Under the pieces are notes generated by a model that made no database searches, had not been told where the DNA came from, and saw only the letters and a program-made list of their open reading frames with translations. A stretch of 64,000 bases of DNA from Campylobacteraceae bacterium (lineage in GTDB: Bacteria > Campylobacterota > Campylobacteria > Campylobacterales > Sulfurovaceae). Shown here piece after piece: positions 1-13,218 of the stretch. Made by a program: the position numbers and the translations under genes. The stretch lies in the NCBI GenBank assembly GCA_027024155.1, contig JALVTE010000080.1, forward strand, positions 36,218 to 100,217, read 5' to 3'. Position 1 is the stretch's first letter. The number at the start of each line of letters is the position of its first letter.

Positions 1-127
1 TGTTGTATTATAATCTGCTCCATCTTTTAATAGTTTTACTGTTATACCTGCAACTCCCGCCTCTCCACTATCTTGGATTCCATTTGCGTTTGTATCTTCC
101 CATACTTTATCGCCTAAGCATACTGTT
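1..127. repeat. Long direct repeat, copy 1 (within SdrD_B domain)
   Basis: Bases 1-127 match 1051-1177 base for base and may continue left of the window. The offset is 1050 bp, exactly 350 codons, so the copy is in frame and spans three SdrD_B domains. The match ends at 127/1177, where the following bases differ. Confidence 0.9.
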
Positions 128-3100
128 GGTGCTGGTTTATACATACCCGCATCTACATCTGTATTATCTTCACCGCTTGTTACTGTTATGCTATCACTTA
201 CACCACTGCTATCTACATCACTATCTTTACTTGTATCGCTTCCTGCACCTTTTGTGGTGAATGCTTCATAATCGCTTGGTTTATCTACTTTTATTTTATA
301 ATCATCTGGGTTTAAGTTACAGAATTGGTAATTACCATTACTATCTGTTGTAGTTGAGTTTAACTCATTACCTGTACTATCTAGTAAGTGTATAGTAACA
401 TTTGCAATACCTGCTTCATTACTATCTTGGATACCATTTTTATCTGTATCATCCCATACTCTATCACCTATACAAGCACTCTTATATATACCTGCATCTA
501 TTGTCATATTATCATCTGTAGCTACTGTTGCAGGAGCTATTTTACTTGATGGGTCTACATCACTATCTTTACTATCATCACTCCCTTGATTTACTGGAGA
601 TATTTGGTAGTTTGCATCTGGTGTTATTTTTACTTGGTAATTTGTGTTTGCATCTAAATCACAGAATTCATACTTACCACCATTTGCTGTATTAACACTA
701 CTTAATGTGTTACCACTATTATCTAATAGTTCTACTTTTACGCCATCAACTCCTACTTCATTACTATCTTGGATACCATTTGCGTTGCTATCAACCCATA
801 CGAAGTCACCTAAGCAAGGCATTTTATAAATACCCATATCTATATTTAAGTTATCACTATCACCATCATTAATTGTAATATCTGCACTCTCACCATTTGT
901 TGGGTTTGCGTCAGAATCTTTTGCGTCATCGCTTCCTGCTTTTTCTGGGCTTATTGCGTAGTGTGCTGGTAGGCTTGATTTATCGAATACTATTTTATAT
1001 GTTGCTGATTGTAAGTTACAGAATTTATACTCACCACTGCTATCGGTTGTTGTTGTATTATAATCTGCTCCATCTTTTAATAGTTTTACTGTTATACCTG
1101 CAACTCCCGCCTCTCCACTATCTTGGATTCCATTTGCGTTTGTATCTTCCCATACTTTATCGCCTAAGCATACTGTTATATCTTTGAAACCAAAATCTAA
1201 ACTATGGTCATTTGAACCAGCTGTTGCTATATTAGAAGAGTTAATCTCTACCTCATCATCACTATTATTAACTACACCATCACTATCTATCTTATCATTC
1301 AAGCCACTGTTTGAGTCAGTTGGCATTAAATCGCTTAAAGCGCTCTGTTGGTTTGAACCTGTTGCATTTGGAATACGAACAATACAATCACTACTATTTG
1401 CTTGTAGCTGAGTTATATTATACTTTTGGCTATCTGTATCAGTTCCATTTGGGTCATTAGAGAATATATAGTAACCACCATTTGCAGTAGTAGCTTCTGA
1501 AGCGATATCTCCTCCACACACCAACTGCACAGTTACACCATCAATTCCATCTTCATCTGCATCTTGAATACCATTTTTATTTGTATCTTTCCATACGCGG
1601 TTACCAACTTCAATAGGTGCAGCTGCTGTAATTAACTCAACATCACCAAGTCCAGCTCCTTTTGTATTTAAATCATTATCATTTGCTGTAGATATTTGAT
1701 ATACATTAACTCTATCACCCTGATTAGATGACACTCTATTAGTGTTATACCACTGAAAACCTTGATTAAAATTACCCTCTATTGCATCAAAAGTTGTTAC
1801 CAAAATTTGCGAACTTCCCATTGCAGTTACTACAGAACCCAAATTGTTTTCTAAATGGTGCGCTTCGTTATTGCTTGTATCATCATATTGAGAAGAGTAA
1901 TCTTTATAGTAAAATTCACCAACGCCACCAGGTCCATCATCTGATTTTGCACGGTCATCAGGGCTGTCATTTAATTTTGCTTCATTATCATCATGTGCAA
2001 TTTGGCAACCATCTTCTCCCTCTACTAAATAGCCAGAATCTGTTTTACATAAATGCAGAGTATCTCCGGCAGAATCTACAGAAAAAGTCTGATTAATTCC
2101 TGTATCTGCTGGGTAATTATCTAAGTCTAATTGTTCAGCAAATCTATCTAAAAAGCCTAATATCATATCTCCATTTGAATCAAAAGTAATGTCACTTAAT
2201 ATTGGTTGAGGACATGAATACTCTCCACCATTAGAGTTTCGACCAAGTGCATTACCTAACTCATCCCAACTAGTAGCCCATCTATTCCAATTAGATTGTG
2301 AACCCAAAGAGCAAGTTCCTGCACTTACTGTATATTGAGAACTCTCTCTTGGGTATGTTAATGGAAAATCTTTAACCTTATTAAAAGTACCAATAGGGTT
2401 AAGTGGATTAAAGCTTAAGATATAAGCATGAACTGCTGCATTTGAAGTATCTTGCGTACTATCGCAAACAACACCTACATACCCTTTGCCATTATGAAAT
2501 GACAATGCCCACGGTCTAAACTCTCCATCACAAGTTCCTAAAGATGAAAAATCAATATTGTAATGAGAGACTAAAGAGCCATCTATTGCACCACTTGTTG
2601 GTAAAGAATCAGGATTACTAATATCTATTTTAATTAAAGATTTTTGATTTAAGTTTACAACCCATAGGGCTTTACCACTCTCATCAACATCAGCATCTCC
2701 AAAACCAACTTCTCCAACCTTTCCAAAAGCATCTATATCATAAGATCTACTATTAGATACATTTGTTGTTAAGGCATTTGGATTAGAAGTAGTTACATTT
2801 CCATCGATAACCTCTCTTGTTACTGTACCAGTATCTATATCTCCAGCATCTCCATTTGCAGGGCTTACATTATTAAGTGTAAAACCGCCTATATAGCTAC
2901 CACCTTTTGTTCCATCATATTTAACCATATATATACCATCAACAGGTACATCTTGCTCCCCAGCTCCTGTGTCTGGTCTAACTAACTCGCCTAAACCTGA
3001 ATGTCTCTTAAGAAATGCAGACTCATAAAGAACACCACTATCTTTTTGATAAGCAGCACCCCATACCGTTCCTATTTTATCAAACGATACATCCTCAGTT

Positions 3101-3624
3101 ACAGCAGGTTGTGCTTTCCCTGTTGCATCGTAAGGAAGAGAGAATAGAGCGTAGTTTTTATTACTTGTACTAGCAGCAGAAGCCCAAGGTCTCTGTGCAG
3201 ATGCAGCAAAAGCTGTTTTATCTAAACCAGAGTTATACTCACTTGGATTATGTACAGCAAAATCTACATCGCTATCTCCATCATTCACAAATCGTACAGA
3301 AGAGTTATTAACACTATTTGATGGACTCTCTTTTAAGTAACTTGGAATATTACTAAACTCCACTCTAACTCGCCCACTAAGTCCTTGCAGAACATAACTA
3401 CCATCGCTAGCCGTTGTAGCAGTAGCTTTATTACCTGAGCTATCAACCCCAGTAACACTAACTCCCGCAACACCTAATTCGTTAGAGTCTTTTACACCAT
3501 AACTATTTAAGTTTGTTCCATTTAGAGGTAAATCTTGAAAGACCACACCTCCTATGTCAGCATACACTATTGTGCTCAACAATAGCATAGAGTAACATAG
3601 TTTTTGTAATTTATCTGTTTTCAT
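1..3624 (-). CDS. SdrD_B-repeat surface protein, C-terminus beyond window
   Basis: The minus-strand frame is open from an ATG at 3624 to the window edge (1208 codons), so the C-terminus is missing. The N-terminus is a signal peptide (MKTDKLQKLC, then a hydrophobic stretch ending VYADIGG). Domain order: one SdrD_B-like Ig fold (about residues 22-95), a long central region of about 570 residues with propeller-like or SMP-like text (GDADVDESGKALWVVN), then at least five tandem SdrD_B domains, each opening with a motif like LGDKVWEDTNANGIQDSGE. These domains are the cell-wall or adhesin B repeats known from staphylococcal Sdr proteins and common in large secreted Gram-negative proteins. The ribosome site is AGGAAA just before the ATG. 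It lies downstream of the 3901-8402 cluster with a 276-bp gap that has its own promoter-like sequence. Role in adhesion or the surface layer is inferred. Confidence 0.85.
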   Translation of the reverse strand, partial: MKTDKLQKLCYSMLLLSTIVYADIGGVVFQDLPLNGTNLNSYGVKDSNELGVAGVSVTGVDSSGNKATATTASDGSYVLQGLSGRVRVEFSNIPSYLKESPSNSVNNSSVRFVNDGDSDVDFAVHNPSEYNSGLDKTAFAASAQRPWASAASTSNKNYALFSLPYDATGKAQPAVTEDVSFDKIGTVWGAAYQKDSGVLYESAFLKRHSGLGELVRPDTGAGEQDVPVDGIYMVKYDGTKGGSYIGGFTLNNVSPANGDAGDIDTGTVTREVIDGNVTTSNPNALTTNVSNSRSYDIDAFGKVGEVGFGDADVDESGKALWVVNLNQKSLIKIDISNPDSLPTSGAIDGSLVSHYNIDFSSLGTCDGEFRPWALSFHNGKGYVGVVCDSTQDTSNAAVHAYILSFNPLNPIGTFNKVKDFPLTYPRESSQYTVSAGTCSLGSQSNWNRWATSWDELGNALGRNSNGGEYSCPQPILSDITFDSNGDMILGFLDRFAEQLDLDNYPADTGINQTFSVDSAGDTLHLCKTDSGYLVEGEDGCQIAHDDNEAKLNDSPDDRAKSDDGPGGVGEFYYKDYSSQYDDTSNNEAHHLENNLGSVVTAMGSSQILVTTFDAIEGNFNQGFQWYNTNRVSSNQGDRVNVYQISTANDNDLNTKGAGLGDVELITAAAPIEVGNRVWKDTNKNGIQDADEDGIDGVTVQLVCGGDIASEATTANGGYYIFSNDPNGTDTDSQKYNITQLQANSSDCIVRIPNATGSNQQSALSDLMPTDSNSGLNDKIDSDGVVNNSDDEVEINSSNIATAGSNDHSLDFGFKDITVCLGDKVWEDTNANGIQDSGEAGVAGITVKLLKDGADYNTTTTDSSGEYKFCNLQSATYKIVFDKSSLPAHYAISPEKAGSDDAKDSDANPTNGESADITINDGDSDNLNIDMGIYKMPCLGDFVWVDSNANGIQDSNEVGVDGVKVELLDNSGNTLSSVNTANGGKYEFCDLDANTNYQVKITPDANYQISPVNQGSDDSKDSDVDPSSKIAPATVATDDNMTIDAGIYKSACIGDRVWDDTDKNGIQDSNEAGIANVTIHLLDSTGNELNSTTTDSNGNYQFCNLNPDDYKIKVDKPSDYEAFTTKGAGSDTSKDSDVDSSGVSDSITVTSGEDNTDVDAGMYKPAPTVCLGDKVWEDTNANGIQDSGEAGVAGITVKLLKDGADYNTT
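1051..1177. repeat. Long direct repeat, copy 2 (within SdrD_B domain)
   Basis: This is the partner of the repeat at 1-127. Both encode the start of an SdrD_B domain (LGDKVWEDTNANGIQD and the following strand). Identity at nucleotide level, while neighbouring domains differ, points to recent duplication or gene conversion. Confidence 0.9.
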
Positions 3625-3900: not shown

Positions 3901-4836
3901 TTATCTCTTAGGCTCTGCAATACTCCAAGTAGAATTAGTAGGATTATATGTAGCTATATATACAAATCTCTGTTTTTTATTTGTCTCTGCTACAAGAGAA
4001 TAGTTAAATTTTATCGCCTCTATTTTTAATCTATTTTTACCAATTACTCTAATTTTTCTAACTCTAAGTCTTGGGTTTGGTATCTCAAATAGTTTATTAG
4101 CTTTAGAGTCAATTTTATCTCCTTTAAAAGTAAATGTATAAACTCCATTATCTCTAGCGCTTCCAGCAATTAAATACTTAGCTCCTTTAGCATGCAAAAT
4201 ATTAACAGTTAAAGCATCAAATCCATCTATTCTGTTTATAATAGTTTTTGTTTTTGGATTAATTTGATAAATTACACCCTTTTGAGCTTTATAATTACTC
4301 TCATCTATACTACTAGCTATAAGCTCACCACTGTCACAATCGTAAACAATCGATATAAGTCCATAAGGGTTTGTAGGGTTTGGCTTAACATCATCTATTA
4401 CCATCCAACGACTCAATTTACCACTTTTGCTATCCATTTTATATATAGCTTTTTGCAAATTAAATGTAGAGGGGCGAACACTAATAAATGGATTAGGTGT
4501 TAAATAGATATTTCCATAATTATCTATTGTATAAGTACCAAGTGCATCAAAAACTTCCCACTCTTTTTTGTGTAAAACTTTGTTAAATCTAGCTCCGTAA
4601 TAGAATGCTATACCTTTATAATGCATTTGGCTTAAATCTATAATAGGTCTTTTAATTCCTAAACTATATAGAAATTGTGGTATTTTTGCACAACTTCGAA
4701 CTCTATTAAACTCTTTTAATTTAAAAGTTTTAGCAATCTCTTTTTTCTCAACTTTTGGGCTATCGTTTAGCAAAAAATAGCCTACCCCACCAAGAAGCAA
4801 CAATACAACTAAAATCGGCAATACTCTTTTCATCAA
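3901..4836 (-). CDS. Membrane-anchored protein of unknown function (possible beta-propeller)
   Basis: 311 aa. The N-terminus has a basic start, then one hydrophobic segment (residues 5-24, LPILVVLLLLGGVGYFLL) with no clear cleavage site, so it is probably an inner-membrane anchor with a periplasmic body. The body has repeated strand-turn text (GNIYLTPNP, GKLSRWMVIDD, GELIASSID, KGVIYQINPKTKTI, DNGVYTFTFKGDK) resembling blades of a YncE/SMP-30-type propeller, but I cannot name a family. It lies 45 bp downstream of the copper-amine-oxidase-like gene on the same strand and is likely co-transcribed with it. The SdrD_B gene follows. Confidence 0.75.
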   Translation of the reverse strand: MMKRVLPILVVLLLLGGVGYFLLNDSPKVEKKEIAKTFKLKEFNRVRSCAKIPQFLYSLGIKRPIIDLSQMHYKGIAFYYGARFNKVLHKKEWEVFDALGTYTIDNYGNIYLTPNPFISVRPSTFNLQKAIYKMDSKSGKLSRWMVIDDVKPNPTNPYGLISIVYDCDSGELIASSIDESNYKAQKGVIYQINPKTKTIINRIDGFDALTVNILHAKGAKYLIAGSARDNGVYTFTFKGDKIDSKANKLFEIPNPRLRVRKIRVIGKNRLKIEAIKFNYSLVAETNKKQRFVYIATYNPTNSTWSIAEPKR

Positions 4837-4858: not shown

Positions 4859-4893
4859 CACTAACCACTAACCCCTAACCCCTAATTACTAAT
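4859..4893. repeat. TTAG-type short tandem repeat at a gene 3' end
   Basis: On the minus (coding) strand this is a run of TTAGTAA/TTAGGGG/TTAGTGG units that starts inside the last codons and supplies the TAG stop of the 4882-6774 gene. Similar runs end the genes at 22251 and 35446. Confidence 0.55.
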
Positions 4894-6774
4894 AGGCACA
4901 AACTTAGGTCCTACAATACAAGGCCATACTCGCACACTTGGGTTACCGTTTTTATCTATTATGCTATCTGCCCAGCAATACTCTTCGCCTGCTTTATCGT
5001 CGTTTTGAATAGTTGGTACATACCAAATAACTGTATCAGTATTCTCTATTAACTCTTTATCTTTAGTATACTCTTCAGGACCATCATAGTCTAATTTACA
5101 GCAACTACCAAGGGTTAGTAAATCTTCGTTGCCTTCATCCTCTTTATATTTTGTTACATATACATCTTCGTTATCACCACGGCTATTGTCATGAAACTGT
5201 CCACGATTTGGCTCTATGTAGTAGCCCTCATTAGCATCTTCTGGACTAAATACTTTATAAAGATATTTATCATCAAGCATCTTCTCTTTACCTGTAGAGC
5301 GATACCCTTGCTCTATTTGCCAATCGTCCCAATCTTTGCCATTATATAGTGCAAAACGCTCTTTATTATCACTTAATTTAATATCTAATCTCATTACAGG
5401 ACGATAAATTGCTTTATCTGAACAACCTCTACCCATATTAATTGCAACAACTCTAAATGAGCCATCTTTATTAAATATAAACTTATTTTCATATCTATAA
5501 TTACAAGCCATTGGCCACTTTGGATTTCTGAAATCTTGTACTATATAAAAGCCTGTCACCTTGCCATTTTTATCTTTTATCTCTTTAATTTGTGGTCCAT
5601 TAAATGCCAACACAACCGAAGTAGAAAACATAGGACACCCCATTGCATCGTTGTATCCAAAGGTGTATTCATTATTAACACCCTTTATAAACTCTACCCT
5701 GTGCCCCGCCATCATTACTGGCTCTGTAGTATCTAATTTATCAGCACCCAAACCCTTATAAGCCACATGCCAATCTACAATTTTAAGACTTCTAGCAACA
5801 CTTTTACCCTTATATTTAATATCTCTAATCTCAAGCCCATCTGAGCCCGTTAAGTGGTACTTCATACTCCAGCCAAATTTTGTCAAGTTCGTATCTTTTT
5901 GGCAAAAGTTTTTCATAATATAGCGGTTTTCAAGTGTTCTCTCATCTATACAAGCAGGCGTATAGGTTTTGCCAAGCCCCGCCCACTTTGCAATAGCTAA
6001 TTTTAAATCGGTTAAATCGACAATAGCCCAAAGTGCTCTCTCTTTTTTATGGTCTGCAAATGTTGGTGCAACGCATAGATGATTCTTATCTTCGCATGGC
6101 GATTGCTCTAAATTAGAGCGAACATTTGCCATACTAATCTCGCTAGGCGTTGGCGTATGCCCCAACTCTTTAATAACCTTTGGGTTATTTAGTGCTATCT
6201 CTTTAGCAATATTGGTAAGTCTAGCACTAATATCAGGCTGAGAGTTAGCATATCTTTTTACCGATACAACCCTTTTAGCCTTAACATCAACAATAGCACG
6301 AGTAGTAGAGTTTAAAGCATAATTATACTTCTCTACAACATAACAAACAGAGCTTTTGCACTCTTTTTTACTCTTATCATCAAGAGTAGCAGATATAGCA
6401 GGCATTACTCTCATAATATCATTATGAAGCAACTTATTATCCATTTTAGTATCACTTAAAAACTCTTTACTCTTTAGAGCAACATTTTGAGCGACTACAC
6501 CATTATTATCCAGCTCAGATTTTTGAAGTGGAAGAGTAGATTTCCCCTTTTCGTAAAGCTTTTTTAAATCAGCTAAATACTCCTCTACTGCAGGAATTTT
6601 AGCAGCACTTTGCTCATCTGTATCGGGCATTATTACCTTTTTATCACTACTATCTAAGTTTTTATTAACTGTAGCAACTTTTACACTTTTGTGGCTTTTT
6701 TTATAATATAACCCACCAATAGCAAGCCCGCCAATAATTAAGAGAGCAAGCGCAATTTTATACTCATTTTTCAT
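4882..6774 (-). CDS. Copper amine oxidase-like protein, apparently degenerate, membrane-anchored
   Basis: 630 aa with one N-terminal membrane segment (residues 7-23) and many cysteines, so a periplasmic, disulphide-bonded body is likely. The order of motifs follows copper amine oxidases: a small N-terminal domain ending ALWAIVDLTDLKLAIAKW (247-264), GLEIRDIKYKGKSVAR (313-328), GYNDAMGCPMFSTSVV (373-388), GFYIVQDFRN (408-417), N-Y-R-Y (425-428) at the topaquinone site, FNKDGSFRV (434-442), MRLDIKL (461-467), VYVTKYKEDEGNED (538-551) and ENTDTVIWYV (577-586). The topaquinone-type Tyr426 remains, but the consensus Asp after it is Arg427. The H-x-H copper loop is replaced by AIYRPVM, and the third histidine region is also lost. 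Oxidase activity is therefore doubtful. The start abuts the upstream TraB gene with no gap. Family assignment rests on recalled motifs. Confidence 0.6.
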   Translation of the reverse strand: MKNEYKIALALLIIGGLAIGGLYYKKSHKSVKVATVNKNLDSSDKKVIMPDTDEQSAAKIPAVEEYLADLKKLYEKGKSTLPLQKSELDNNGVVAQNVALKSKEFLSDTKMDNKLLHNDIMRVMPAISATLDDKSKKECKSSVCYVVEKYNYALNSTTRAIVDVKAKRVVSVKRYANSQPDISARLTNIAKEIALNNPKVIKELGHTPTPSEISMANVRSNLEQSPCEDKNHLCVAPTFADHKKERALWAIVDLTDLKLAIAKWAGLGKTYTPACIDERTLENRYIMKNFCQKDTNLTKFGWSMKYHLTGSDGLEIRDIKYKGKSVARSLKIVDWHVAYKGLGADKLDTTEPVMMAGHRVEFIKGVNNEYTFGYNDAMGCPMFSTSVVLAFNGPQIKEIKDKNGKVTGFYIVQDFRNPKWPMACNYRYENKFIFNKDGSFRVVAINMGRGCSDKAIYRPVMRLDIKLSDNKERFALYNGKDWDDWQIEQGYRSTGKEKMLDDKYLYKVFSPEDANEGYYIEPNRGQFHDNSRGDNEDVYVTKYKEDEGNEDLLTLGSCCKLDYDGPEEYTKDKELIENTDTVIWYVPTIQNDDKAGEEYCWADSIIDKNGNPSVRVWPCIVGPKFVPISN

Positions 6775-7683
6775 CTACTTTAGCCTTTGAATATTAAAAC
6801 CTTTTTTTTCTAAATAGTATAATACACTCTTTTGACCTAAAAAATGCATAGCTCCAAAAGCAAATAGATATTTTTTATTTGGATTCTTGGATATAAGAGC
6901 ATCTATACGATTTGCCATACGCACATTTCTACTATATAAAAGTTTATCTAAATACCTATTTTTCAAATCTTCGCTAACCTTTGCAGTCGCCAGAGATTCT
7001 TTAAAGTTTTGTATAATAACTTTGCCATTACCTGTTATATAGTTATTTAAAAGTTGCTTAGTCTCATTTGGCTTTTTCTCTAAACTATCTAGCGTGGCAT
7101 TTAACATCTCTATTTGCTCTCTCTTATTAAAGCCTTCAAATACACTCAACTGCTCATCTATACTCTCTACTCCACCTGCACTTTTATTATTATCTCTTGC
7201 CCACTCATAAATTTGCATATCTAGTGGCTTAAATTTACGATATTTTATTTGATACTTCAATGCACCCAAAGTACTATAAACAGCCCATATTTTAAAATTA
7301 TTTAATTTTTTAGCACTTAAAAATGGGCTTATTTTTCTTAACTGTACATCTAAGCGTTTAAATGTATCTTTGGGCAAAACCTCTTGCAGAGTTTTATTAT
7401 CATCTCTCTTCATAGCCTGCATAGCTTTTATTTTTACACTATTATCCATTTTAATCTCTGTCTTTATAACATCACTATTTTTCATAACAGTTTTTAATTT
7501 AGAGCTAATAGTTAAATATGGATGCGGAATATGCATCGTTCCAAATAGATAAATTGTACTATCTCCTCTAGTTGCTTCCCATAAAAAAGGGGAGTAGTGC
7601 ATAACTTTACTAGCATTATTCTCCAAGCTACTCTTAGCAAAAAGTGCCCCAACAAATAGCACAATAATTAAAAGTTTTTTCAT
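6775..7683 (-). CDS. TraB/GumN family protein
   Basis: 302 aa with a cleavable-looking signal peptide (MKKLLIIVLFVGALFAKS). It carries the two family signatures: IYLFGTMHIPHP near the N-terminus (residues 44-55) and YLFAFGAMHFLGQKS near the C-terminus. This is the TraB/GumN/pheromone-shutdown fold (PF01963), often proposed to be a protease or hydrolase; its substrate is not known. The start overlaps the end of the M15 peptidase gene by 4 bp, and its stop abuts the copper-amine-oxidase-like gene, so the genes are translationally coupled. Confidence 0.85.
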   Translation of the reverse strand: MKKLLIIVLFVGALFAKSSLENNASKVMHYSPFLWEATRGDSTIYLFGTMHIPHPYLTISSKLKTVMKNSDVIKTEIKMDNSVKIKAMQAMKRDDNKTLQEVLPKDTFKRLDVQLRKISPFLSAKKLNNFKIWAVYSTLGALKYQIKYRKFKPLDMQIYEWARDNNKSAGGVESIDEQLSVFEGFNKREQIEMLNATLDSLEKKPNETKQLLNNYITGNGKVIIQNFKESLATAKVSEDLKNRYLDKLLYSRNVRMANRIDALISKNPNKKYLFAFGAMHFLGQKSVLYYLEKKGFNIQRLK

Positions 7684-8402
7684 TTTAAAATCTCCGGTCT
7701 ATACTCAAAATGCATTGTGTCATAGTGATACCACTTACCACCCCAAATAAAGCCATGTTTCTCAAATATTCGCACTATCTCATACGGAATTTTATTTTGG
7801 TAACGATACCCACCTTTACTCCAACGCCAATAAGCAGAGTACTTTACATTTATATCTATAGCCGCCCCAAACGAATGCACACTTAGCCGATTTGTCCCTG
7901 CAATATGACGCCACTTAAATGTACCGCCTATTGGGTGCAGATACTTTTTATACTTAGCAGGCAATCTATTTAATTCAGCCCTAACAGCACTTAAAGCATT
8001 CGCAACGCCATTAGCTCTAGTAACCAAAATATTCCCACCAAACCAAGGAATACGAACCAAATTTCGCTTAACTTCACTAGCACTATGCCCATAAAGCTCT
8101 TTAAAAAGTGGCTCAAAACGAATCCGCCCCGGGTCATCATTTAAAGGCATACCACTAACCCTACCGCGAGGGTACTTAAATCTAAACATATCCTCTATAT
8201 CAGGAGAGTTAAGCAGTTGCTTAAAACTCTTTTTCTTACCATCATCATAAACAAAACTTTTACCATTAGTTAAATAAATTCTATTATTATCACACTTAGC
8301 AATTTTAGAGTAAGCACTAACCAATTTAATAGCATTCAAATCACATTTAGCATAAGAAAACACAGTTATCACACTTATAAAAGTCATAATTTTTTTCAAC
8401 AT
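7680..8402 (-). CDS. M15 family metallopeptidase (D-Ala-D-Ala carboxypeptidase-like)
   Basis: 240 aa with a signal peptide (MLKKIMTFISVITVFSYA). The C-terminal half has the M15/VanY zinc site: SVHSFGAAIDIN (His176, Asp183) and WYHYDTMHFEYRPE (His231). Enzymes of this family trim peptidoglycan stem peptides or link peptides in the periplasm. It is the first gene of the minus-strand cluster that continues through TraB, the amine-oxidase-like protein and a membrane-anchored unknown. The next gene upstream diverges, so the promoter should lie just right of 8402. Confidence 0.85.
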   Translation of the reverse strand: MLKKIMTFISVITVFSYAKCDLNAIKLVSAYSKIAKCDNNRIYLTNGKSFVYDDGKKKSFKQLLNSPDIEDMFRFKYPRGRVSGMPLNDDPGRIRFEPLFKELYGHSASEVKRNLVRIPWFGGNILVTRANGVANALSAVRAELNRLPAKYKKYLHPIGGTFKWRHIAGTNRLSVHSFGAAIDINVKYSAYWRWSKGGYRYQNKIPYEIVRIFEKHGFIWGGKWYHYDTMHFEYRPEILK

Positions 8403-8593: not shown

Positions 8594-9361
8594 ATGGCAA
8601 GAAGAGCAAGGTTAGATTTAGCGGGGTTTCATCATATTGTTAATCGTGGTGTGGCAAAAGGGAAGATTTATAAAAGTGCTGATGATAAAGATAAATTTTT
8701 AGAGATACTATGTAAAGCTTGCAGAGTATATAAAGTTAATGTACACGATTACTGCTTAATGGATAACCACTATCATCTATTTATAGAGACTACTTCGCAA
8801 AATCTATCACTTTTTATGCGACAAATAAATGGAAACTATGCTATATATTTTAATAAAAAATATAAACGAGTAGGACACTTATGGCAAGGGCGATATAGGT
8901 CTTGGTATGTTGTAAATGAGGCTTACTTTTATACAATATTTAGATATATAGAGCATAACCCTATAAAAGCAAGAATGGCTAAAAGTGTAGGTGAGTACCC
9001 ATATACGCTTTTAGCAACTTTGCTAAACCCTAAATTAGAGCTCATACCTTGTGCCAAACACTCAAAATTAAGAAAAGAGTTACACTACGAGGGAGTACAA
9101 GAGCTTTTAGATAGAAAGCTTAGCAAAAATGAGCTTAATGAGTTAAAAGCTGAAGAAAAAAAGAAGATAGAGCAAACAGAGTATGGGTACAGACAAATTA
9201 AGAGAAAAAAACTAAAAGAGCACTTTGAAAAATGCCAAGATATTCAAGAGAGAAACAGTGCTATACTAAAGGCATTAGATGATGGATATACCCAAGGAGA
9301 AGTGGCTAGGTATTTGGGTCTATCGTCTGCAATGGTGTCTAAGATTTTTAGAAGTAGGTAG
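8594..9361 (+). CDS. REP-associated tyrosine transposase (RAYT, Y1_Tnp)
   Basis: 255 aa. The Y1/HUH nuclease signature is complete: NHYHLF at residues 58-63 (His59, His61) and FRYIEHNP with the candidate nucleophile Tyr118. The first residues, RRARLDLAGFHHIVNRG, are typical of TnpA_REP proteins. A basic linker leads to a C-terminal helix-turn-helix (DDGYTQGEVARYLGLSSAMVSK), an addition seen in some RAYTs. Such proteins cut single-stranded DNA beside REP hairpins and are thought to spread REP sequences. The reading frame is intact, so the element may be active. The last codons and stop lie within the right inverted repeat. Confidence 0.92.
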   Translation: MARRARLDLAGFHHIVNRGVAKGKIYKSADDKDKFLEILCKACRVYKVNVHDYCLMDNHYHLFIETTSQNLSLFMRQINGNYAIYFNKKYKRVGHLWQGRYRSWYVVNEAYFYTIFRYIEHNPIKARMAKSVGEYPYTLLATLLNPKLELIPCAKHSKLRKELHYEGVQELLDRKLSKNELNELKAEEKKKIEQTEYGYRQIKRKKLKEHFEKCQDIQERNSAILKALDDGYTQGEVARYLGLSSAMVSKIFRSR

Positions 9362-11487: not shown

Positions 11488-11523
11488 AATGATAAAATGC
11501 AGTACCAAACAATGGGAGTTTTT

Positions 11524-13218
11524 ATGAGAAAATATTTAATTTTACCAATATCTTTAATGATAGTAGCAGGATGTGGAGGAGGTGGAACTACTACCTCTTA
11601 TAGTAATACAGGTGGAGACAATCAGACAAATACTCAAACTAATAATCGTACTTATAAAGGGGCTAAAAAGAGTTTTGATATTAACGAAAGCAATCAAATA
11701 GTAGAGGTGCATCAAACTAAAAATTTAGAGCTAACACTTAATATAGATTCTCCAAAAGATATATATGTAGTGACTACAAGTCATTTTAATAATCAGCAAG
11801 TATCTATTAGTTCGCCTAGTGCTACTTCGGATGTAGAGCAAAATTATAAAGAGTTATCTGTAGATAATACAAAGATAAAAGATAAAACCCCTCAAAAAGT
11901 TTTAGATTTTAGAAAAAATGTATTTAATATGTTGCATAAAAATGCTTTGAATAAACAAAGCACTATTTTAAAGCGTAGTAAAGTTTTAAGTACAAATGAG
12001 GGTGATACATTTAACTTCTGTACAGATATGAATATGAATGACGAAAGTTGTACACACTATATAGAAGCAACAGCTAAAAAAGTTGAAAGAGATATACCAA
12101 CAAAATTTGGTACTAAAAATTTAGTTGTTTGGGTTGCAAATGATGAATTAAATAACAATACAATAACACAAGATATGATAGATAAGTTAGCAAATAACTT
12201 TTTACAAAATAGTGATAATAGCCATTACGATGATGATATTTACGATTGGGATACAAATATTTATGGAAAAGCATGGGGTTCAAATGCTTCTAGCGTAGAC
12301 CCTGATTTGATAGGAGATGACAACACTATAAATATTTTAATTTATACTATATATGATAAAAATCATCATGATGATACTATTGCTGGCTACTTTTGGTCAA
12401 AAGACAACTTTAAACGCAGTAGTTTAGCAGCATCTAACGAAAAGATAATGTTTTATGTAAATTCAAAACTCTATGCAAATAACGAAAAAGAGACATTTAC
12501 AACACTAGCACATGAATTTCAGCATATGATTCATTTTTATCAAAGAAAAGTACTTATTGGTGTAAATGATAGCACTTGGTTTGATGAAATGATGTCAGAG
12601 ACTACAGAAGATTTAGTAGCAACTAAAATTAAATATAATGGACCTAGAAGTGTTGCATATTACAATGGGGCAGCAGGACCTATTGAGTGTACTTATTTAA
12701 ATAACAATAGAAAATATTGTGGTAGATTCCCAGATTTTAATAAAAATAATACTCTATCTTTAACAAATTGGAACAACACTGTAGCAGATTACTCAAAAGT
12801 TAGCTCATTTGGAACTTTTTTAACAAGAAATTATGGTGGTGCAAAAGTACTACATAATTTGATGTATAGTAAAAACACTGATGAGTTGGCAGTATTAGAT
12901 GCAACAGGCGAAAAAGATTTTGAGACACTATTAAACAAGTGGGGAGAGGGCGTAATTCTATCAGATGTTGATGATTTAAATAGTTCAAAACCAAAATACA
13001 ATTTTGGTGATTTTAAATATACAACTTATGGAGATATTACTTATAAATTAGGCTCTATTAACTTCTTTAATTATGACCCACAGCCTAGTATGAATAGTTC
13101 TAAAACATTAAACAAAGATGCAAACCTTTACTATAAAGTGGGAAGCAACCTTAGTGGTCAAGTTAAAATAGATGTAGATATAGAAAAAGGCGGAGATGTT
13201 ATAATTATTGCTAAATAA
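11524..13218 (+). CDS. Lipoprotein zinc metalloprotease, M30 (hyicolysin)-like
   Basis: 564 aa from the ATG at 11524, chosen because GGGAG lies 5 bp before it; an ATG at 11497 would add nine residues. The N-terminus is a lipoprotein signal (LILPISLMIVAGCGGGG) with the acylated Cys in VAGC. The zinc site is HEFQH (about residues 330-334), and the following WFDEMMSETTED has the third-ligand Glu seen in M30 hyicolysin-type peptidases. A low-complexity Thr/Asn linker follows the lipid anchor. It is likely an outer-membrane or surface protease; the substrate is unknown. Next gene is mnmH, 56 bp away with its own -10 box. Confidence 0.8.
   Translation: MRKYLILPISLMIVAGCGGGGTTTSYSNTGGDNQTNTQTNNRTYKGAKKSFDINESNQIVEVHQTKNLELTLNIDSPKDIYVVTTSHFNNQQVSISSPSATSDVEQNYKELSVDNTKIKDKTPQKVLDFRKNVFNMLHKNALNKQSTILKRSKVLSTNEGDTFNFCTDMNMNDESCTHYIEATAKKVERDIPTKFGTKNLVVWVANDELNNNTITQDMIDKLANNFLQNSDNSHYDDDIYDWDTNIYGKAWGSNASSVDPDLIGDDNTINILIYTIYDKNHHDDTIAGYFWSKDNFKRSSLAASNEKIMFYVNSKLYANNEKETFTTLAHEFQHMIHFYQRKVLIGVNDSTWFDEMMSETTEDLVATKIKYNGPRSVAYYNGAAGPIECTYLNNNRKYCGRFPDFNKNNTLSLTNWNNTVADYSKVSSFGTFLTRNYGGAKVLHNLMYSKNTDELAVLDATGEKDFETLLNKWGEGVILSDVDDLNSSKPKYNFGDFKYTTYGDITYKLGSINFFNYDPQPSMNSSKTLNKDANLYYKVGSNLSGQVKIDVDIEKGGDVIIIAK

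Follow-up and report, generated by a model that had tools for sequence, protein, structure and literature searches.

The envelope gene run

The window, by which we mean the whole 64,000-nucleotide stretch of DNA that was analysed, contains a tight minus-strand run of genes, the third of which encodes a 630-residue protein. A sequence-only reading had placed this ORF at 4882-6774 and related it to copper amine oxidases (CuAOs); the ORF is present, on the minus strand, and its product is referred to here by the working name CAOL. In order, the run comprises an M15 carboxypeptidase, a TraB/GumN protein, CAOL, a 311-residue propeller protein and a giant SdrD_B ORF:

7680..8402, minus strand: M15-type D-Ala-D-Ala carboxypeptidase, upstream in the same run (PF13539, 80.8 bits)
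6775..7683, minus strand: TraB/PrgY/GumN protein, upstream of CAOL in the same run (PF01963, 187.8 bits)
4882..6774, minus strand: CAOL, predicted membrane-anchored periplasmic protein of 630 residues with the CuAO fold and no copper site (ORF, PF01179, AlphaFold2, Foldseek, hhalign)
6703..6756, minus strand: predicted N-terminal membrane anchor of CAOL, about residues 7-24 (sequence; helix 3-28 in the model)
3901..4836, minus strand: predicted 311-residue membrane-anchored β-propeller (AlphaFold2, Foldseek, a weak YncE match of relatives, position next to CAOL)
1..3624, minus strand: giant SdrD_B-repeat surface protein, running on outside the window (PF17210, 427 bits)

The propeller ORF probably begins at the ATG at 4833. 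Among the neighbourhoods compared, those in which TraB/GumN and M15 genes accompany CAOL all come from close relatives of the window genome. On the plus strand, a REP-type Y1 transposase-like ORF (8594-9361; motif HYHLFIE) has the M15 gene on one side and a LOG-like gene on the other, and an ORF adjoining the envelope run (11497-13218), which diverges from a gapA-like gene, encodes a putative lipoprotein bearing a Peptidase M30 domain (93 bits).

The membrane anchor proposed for CAOL by the sequence-only reading is N-terminal and helical in the AlphaFold2 model, whereas its estimate of about 20 cysteines was too high; there are 13, each of which is kept in at least 27 of 29 relatives. Comparison with a 94%-identical relative gave a dN/dS of 0.065, so the CAOL coding sequence is under strong purifying selection.

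A copper amine oxidase fold

CAOL matches PF01179 at 31.7 bits (gathering cut-off 27), and 27 of 29 relatives match the same family at E≤0.01. Comparison of the CAOL profile by hhalign with an alignment of nine CuAOs (E. coli TynA and eight plasmid-encoded enzymes) gave a probability of 98 and an E-value of 2e-13 over 408 columns. Direct searches of the PDB were weak, as a single-sequence search returned nothing useful and a profile search reached a diamine oxidase only at E 0.27, which is why fold and profile-profile comparison were required. A monomeric AlphaFold2 model built from 29 sequences (pLDDT 80, pTM 0.57) was therefore compared with the PDB using Foldseek, and all 50 of the 50 matches listed were CuAOs, with a best E-value of 8e-18. 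These matches have low TM-scores (about 0.3) and an rmsd of about 20 Å, which probably reflects the arrangement of domains in the model, unsure at this pTM; the assignment is made on the E-value, the length and the exclusivity of the Foldseek matches. The relationship to CuAOs that had been proposed is thus significant by these measures, and a fold match was found where its absence would have spoken against the proposal.

Loss of the copper site

Equivalences between TynA and CAOL were taken from the agreement of four MAFFT alignments. The cofactor residue Tyr496 of TynA corresponds to Tyr426 of CAOL, and its neighbours Asn495, Asp497 and Tyr498 to Asn425, Arg427 and Tyr428; further pairs are Tyr399 and Tyr339, Arg561 and Arg462, Asp563 and Asp464, and Trp712 and Trp584. 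The third copper ligand, His719, corresponds to Asn591. The main positions in the window are as follows:

5830..5844, minus strand: S311-D-G-L-E315 at the CuAO 'REGL' motif (invariant in 29/29; inside the Pfam match, 297-341)
5758..5760, minus strand: Tyr339, equivalent to TynA Tyr399, in the V-P-Y motif near the cofactor (Tyr in 29/29)
5497..5499, minus strand: Tyr426, at the place of the topaquinone (TPQ) precursor, followed by invariant Arg427 (both in 29/29; four alignments)
5404..5412, minus strand: Ala455-Ile456-Tyr457 at the place of the copper H-x-H (read without gaps from R462-L-D464; Ala in 28/29, Tyr in 29/29)
5002..5004, minus strand: Asn591 at the place of the third copper His (Asn in 27/29)

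None of the 29 relatives carries any of the three copper-binding histidines in the alignment. For the H-x-H pair, the proposed replacement by AIYRPVM holds in that no histidine is present; its exact register is less firm, as all four MAFFT alignments are gapped in this stretch and Ala455-Ile-Tyr457 is obtained by reading back without gaps from RLD. The absence of histidine does not depend on the reading, because CAOL has histidines only at 28, 117, 206, 232, 242, 307, 336, 358 and 528. The region of the third histidine, which had been thought missing, is present and substituted: ENTDTVIW, rightly recognised as CuAO-like, matches LDNTDAVVW of TynA, and the alignment runs on to Asn591.

The TPQ motif N-Y-(D/E)-Y reads N-Y-R-Y, as first noted, with arginine in place of the acidic residue in 29/29 and the preceding asparagine kept in 28/29. 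The column of the catalytic base is Asp or Glu in 26/29, but Val366 in CAOL of the window, and lies in a variable loop. Judged from these alignments, copper was lost across the whole CAOL group while much of the remaining cofactor pocket stayed fixed, which makes a copper/TPQ amine oxidase activity very unlikely; the pocket likely has another job. The earlier suggestion that CAOL may be a scaffold, a sensor or an enzyme with a different cofactor is in keeping with this family-wide loss, and the two co-inherited partner proteins give it strong context.

Two co-inherited partners

The product of the gene following CAOL gave an AlphaFold2 model of all-β blades (pLDDT 90) for which Foldseek returned propellers, which speaks for some form of propeller fold. 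A relative in L037 scores 22.6 bits against NCBIfam NF052280, the YncE-type 7-bladed propeller model, below its cut-off of 400. This gene adjoins CAOL in most loci. The other partner is a multi-spanning protein of about 290 residues that belongs to the NQR2/RnfD/RnfE family (PF03116, 40.7 bits versus 27.7; E≤0.01 in 17 of 20 members) and finds RnfD chains in the PDB at E 2e-4. The [ST]GA[ST] flavinylation motif, the site of covalent FMN, was found in 0 of 20 members, and a domain search revealed no signalling domain. The window genome carries its RnfD-like gene on a different contig (G000:C1:26465-27340).

We counted the trio of CAOL, propeller and RnfD-like genes across 175 genomes of the same family. 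The counts were 47 for CAOL, 45 for the propeller, 48 for the RnfD-like gene and 40 for all three together, with a Fisher p<1e-27 for each pair, related genomes not being independent. The trio is thus almost strictly co-inherited, and its members are near-obligate partners. Clustering of the neighbourhoods of 45 loci revealed a recurrent order of RnfD-like gene, CAOL and propeller, often followed by a giant ORF; the three-gene order is found in most loci, including those of gammaproteobacterial genomes. Co-occurrence reflects more than linkage, because the RnfD-like gene is unlinked in the window genome and all three genes lie apart from one another in G096. In the partial sets of G388, G432, G489, G491, G513 and G524 the match lies at a contig end, and match coordinates give the same appearance in G476, G479 and G528; genomes G407 and G538 are incomplete, and in G416 the RnfD-like match is a fragment where a contig ends. 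The only well-assembled genome with CAOL (locus L006) and neither partner is G208. In the tree, this CAOL has a branch of 6.3, compared with a median end branch of 0.37, and it has lost 7 of the 13 conserved cysteines. Such divergence could, from this one case, reflect relaxation after loss of the partners, as a complex predicts. The N-terminal half of the same protein (L006:784-2544) is no longer clearly alignable, and its N-Y-R-Y has become S-Y-R-F.

One database scan returned 39 CAOL loci, mainly from Sulfurovum/Nitratifractor-type Campylobacterota. Seven loci are in genomes whose RecA is 63-66% identical to that of the Sulfurovum family, compared with 82-89% for the Campylobacterota tested, and these loci therefore come from another group, mostly labelled Gammaproteobacteria; CAOL is not confined to Campylobacterota, to which the sequence-only reading had tied it. 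Six of the seven also have a full RnfD-like gene. The genome of L028 gave no RecA match and was placed in neither group. Rows from the non-Campylobacterota genomes fall in several places of the CAOL tree, which suggests transfer of the set. We considered whether the gammaproteobacterial copies are mis-binned contigs; the non-Campylobacterota RecA, the number of genomes and the several tree places argue against this, although an occasional misplaced contig could still be among them. A plasmid collection contained no CAOL relative. In the phylum, 0 of 397 genomes have a canonical CuAO over the Pfam cut-off in a six-frame search, which is insensitive and misses the window's own CAOL gene at E≤0.001, even though its protein scores above the Pfam cut-off.

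A proposed envelope complex

In dozens of genomes the copper-less CAOL is inherited with the same pair of membrane-attached partners, which suggests reuse of an old enzyme fold in an undescribed cell-envelope complex. The explanation that we favour, with somewhat better than even confidence, is that CAOL is a copper-free pseudoenzyme of the CuAO fold, forming the large periplasmic component of a complex in the inner membrane together with the RnfD-like protein and the propeller. We infer that the three proteins form a physical complex, in which the single N-terminal helix of CAOL would anchor it in the inner membrane beside the multi-spanning NQR2/RnfD-like protein and the membrane-anchored propeller, while its Cys-rich body, probably held by disulphides, would lie in the periplasm. 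Amine oxidase activity would be absent; the old pocket, rich in tyrosine and bearing a new invariant arginine, would act as a binding or docking site in place of a topaquinone centre. A role in the handling of cell-surface proteins or in envelope electron transfer is inferred. Several points weigh against the pseudoenzyme complex: an active enzyme, too, could keep its pocket residues this strictly; the linkage to surface proteins is not universal, and the trio is not associated with the exosortase; and the domain arrangement of the model is unsure.

Giant surface proteins

In 16 of about 31 informative loci, a giant SdrD_B-type ORF follows the propeller on the same strand. In L020 the giant ORF lies between CAOL and the propeller, in L024 it is upstream of the set, and in L013, L016 and L038 genes for OMP barrels, of the kind that accompanies giants, follow directly. 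This placement suggests a link of the trio to surface proteins, which fails as a general rule, because the C-terminal tail of the giants and the exosortase that goes with it are distributed independently of the trio.

The C-terminus of the window giant, in L065, has a transmembrane segment and an RREE tail. A second giant SdrD_B-like ORF of >1895 residues (L065:1-5685, minus strand) lies downstream of it, so that the repeat-protein genes are consecutive. The giants share a C-terminal tail consisting of CxC, an SDGGDAMG-like stretch, about 18 hydrophobic residues and (R/K)(R/K)EE, as seen at L065:6056-6187 (minus strand), L063:17184-17324, L018, L020, L022 and L024. Tail matches at E≤0.05 are present in 97 of the 175 family genomes. 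No NCBIfam sorting-signal model scored above its own cut-off against this tail, which from its sequence looks like an undescribed exosortase sorting signal. In L070-L099, tail-bearing giants are nearly always followed by an outer-membrane β-barrel-like gene of about 219 residues (PF13505 in one member), the two forming a conserved two-gene unit. An exosortase-family gene (PF09721; the nearest named subfamily is XrtH, far under its cut-off) occurs in 52 of the 175 genomes, for example:

L022:6546-7049, minus strand: exosortase-family gene
L091:288-764, plus strand: exosortase-family gene

This gene co-occurs with the RREE tail (odds ratio 19.5, p 5e-15); gene and tail are a candidate for a new exosortase/substrate pair. 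The trio shows no association with the exosortase-family gene (odds ratio 1.0), and its comparison with strong tail matches gave p 0.095. A sortase-like partnership of the trio with the tail was rejected, since the tail is common in genomes without the trio and the exosortase tracks the tail, which the trio does not do for the exosortase.

The positions of the giants and of the OMP-barrel genes, together with the shared CxC, transmembrane and RREE tail, could also mean that the trio is an accessory for maturation or export of the giants, with CAOL and the propeller holding the substrate on the periplasmic side and the membrane protein driving or anchoring the process. We consider this unlikely in view of the same tail and exosortase counts, the exosortase being the likely processor of the tail, and because G490 and G515, trio genomes of good completeness, have no tail match.

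Redox and sensory alternatives

The conserved pocket residues and the NQR2/RnfD homologue as near-obligate partner raise another reading, in which CAOL is a copper-free dehydrogenase whose cofactor at Tyr426 is independent of copper, such as a tyrosine radical or a quinone formed from tyrosine by a different route, and electrons cross the membrane by way of the RnfD-like protein. Retention of Tyr426, Asn425 and Tyr339 in 28-29 of 29 relatives and the mostly acidic base column would be in keeping with this. Known TPQ formation requires copper, however, and no copper ligand survives; the base column lies in a variable loop and is valine in the window; and a maturation enzyme was not found in the trio gene set. 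The lack of the flavinylation motif in the RnfD-like members counts against it as well, although an NqrB/RnfD-like subunit without the covalent flavinylation Thr has a precedent in an Nqr/Rnf-like system (PMC10979944). On this evidence a redox enzyme is distinctly improbable. Its fuller version, in which a Tyr426-derived cofactor passes electrons to the membrane via the RnfD-like protein with the propeller as docking subunit, is more doubtful still; if true, it would define a new, membrane-bound class of quinoprotein-like system.

A sensor, with the old pocket as binding site for a small amine or peptide and the membrane partners relaying the signal, would suit a pocket conserved without copper in a periplasmic, membrane-anchored protein, yet it is very improbable, as the neighbourhoods show no kinase, cyclase or regulator constantly linked to CAOL and the RnfD-like protein has no signalling domain.

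Comparison with known systems

MADH and QHNDH are quinoprotein amine dehydrogenases with a β-propeller subunit. By analogy, the trio may resemble them in having a propeller in the periplasm beside a possible carrier of a residue-derived cofactor; it differs in that their cofactor subunit has another fold and in that no maturation gene was seen. With NQR2/RnfD/RnfE and Nqr/Rnf-like systems, the trio shares PF03116, the similarity to RnfD chains and the precedent for a lost flavinylation Thr (PMC10979944), whereas its RnfD-like protein lacks an adjacent cytosolic NAD-binding domain or FMN-bind partner and has CAOL and the propeller instead.

An inactive CuAO relative is not in itself a novelty, because rodent SVS1 and DOXL are presumed-inactive CuAO relatives in which the cofactor Tyr or copper His is missing (PMC7556508). 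Those are seminal proteins and their paralogues, whereas CAOL is bacterial, membrane-anchored, strongly conserved and part of a gene set, and a common origin of the losses is not implied. In the open-access literature, outside which most subscription journals lie, we found nothing tying CuAO-like proteins to Sulfurovum or to pseudoenzymes; within it, neither the bacterial CAOL branch nor the copper loss throughout the family nor the pair of near-obligate partners appears to have been described.

The CuAOs of PF01179, such as E. coli TynA and Arthrobacter AGAO, share with CAOL the fold over most of its length (Foldseek), the order of motifs, the TPQ-precursor Tyr with its preceding Asn, the V-P-Y-type Tyr and the C-terminal N-T-D-x-V-x-W. 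CAOL differs in lacking the three copper histidines (29/29), in having Arg for Asp/Glu after the Tyr, and in its membrane anchor, 13 conserved cysteines and two near-obligate partners. The Pfam label copper amine oxidase in these genomes should thus not be taken to mean amine catabolism. It marks a strongly conserved branch of the CuAO fold, to all appearances without copper, that is bound up in an envelope set of three parts, one of them an NQR2/RnfD homologue, and the trio is a defined, testable three-gene unit of uncharacterised function in Sulfurovum-type Campylobacterota and Gammaproteobacteria.
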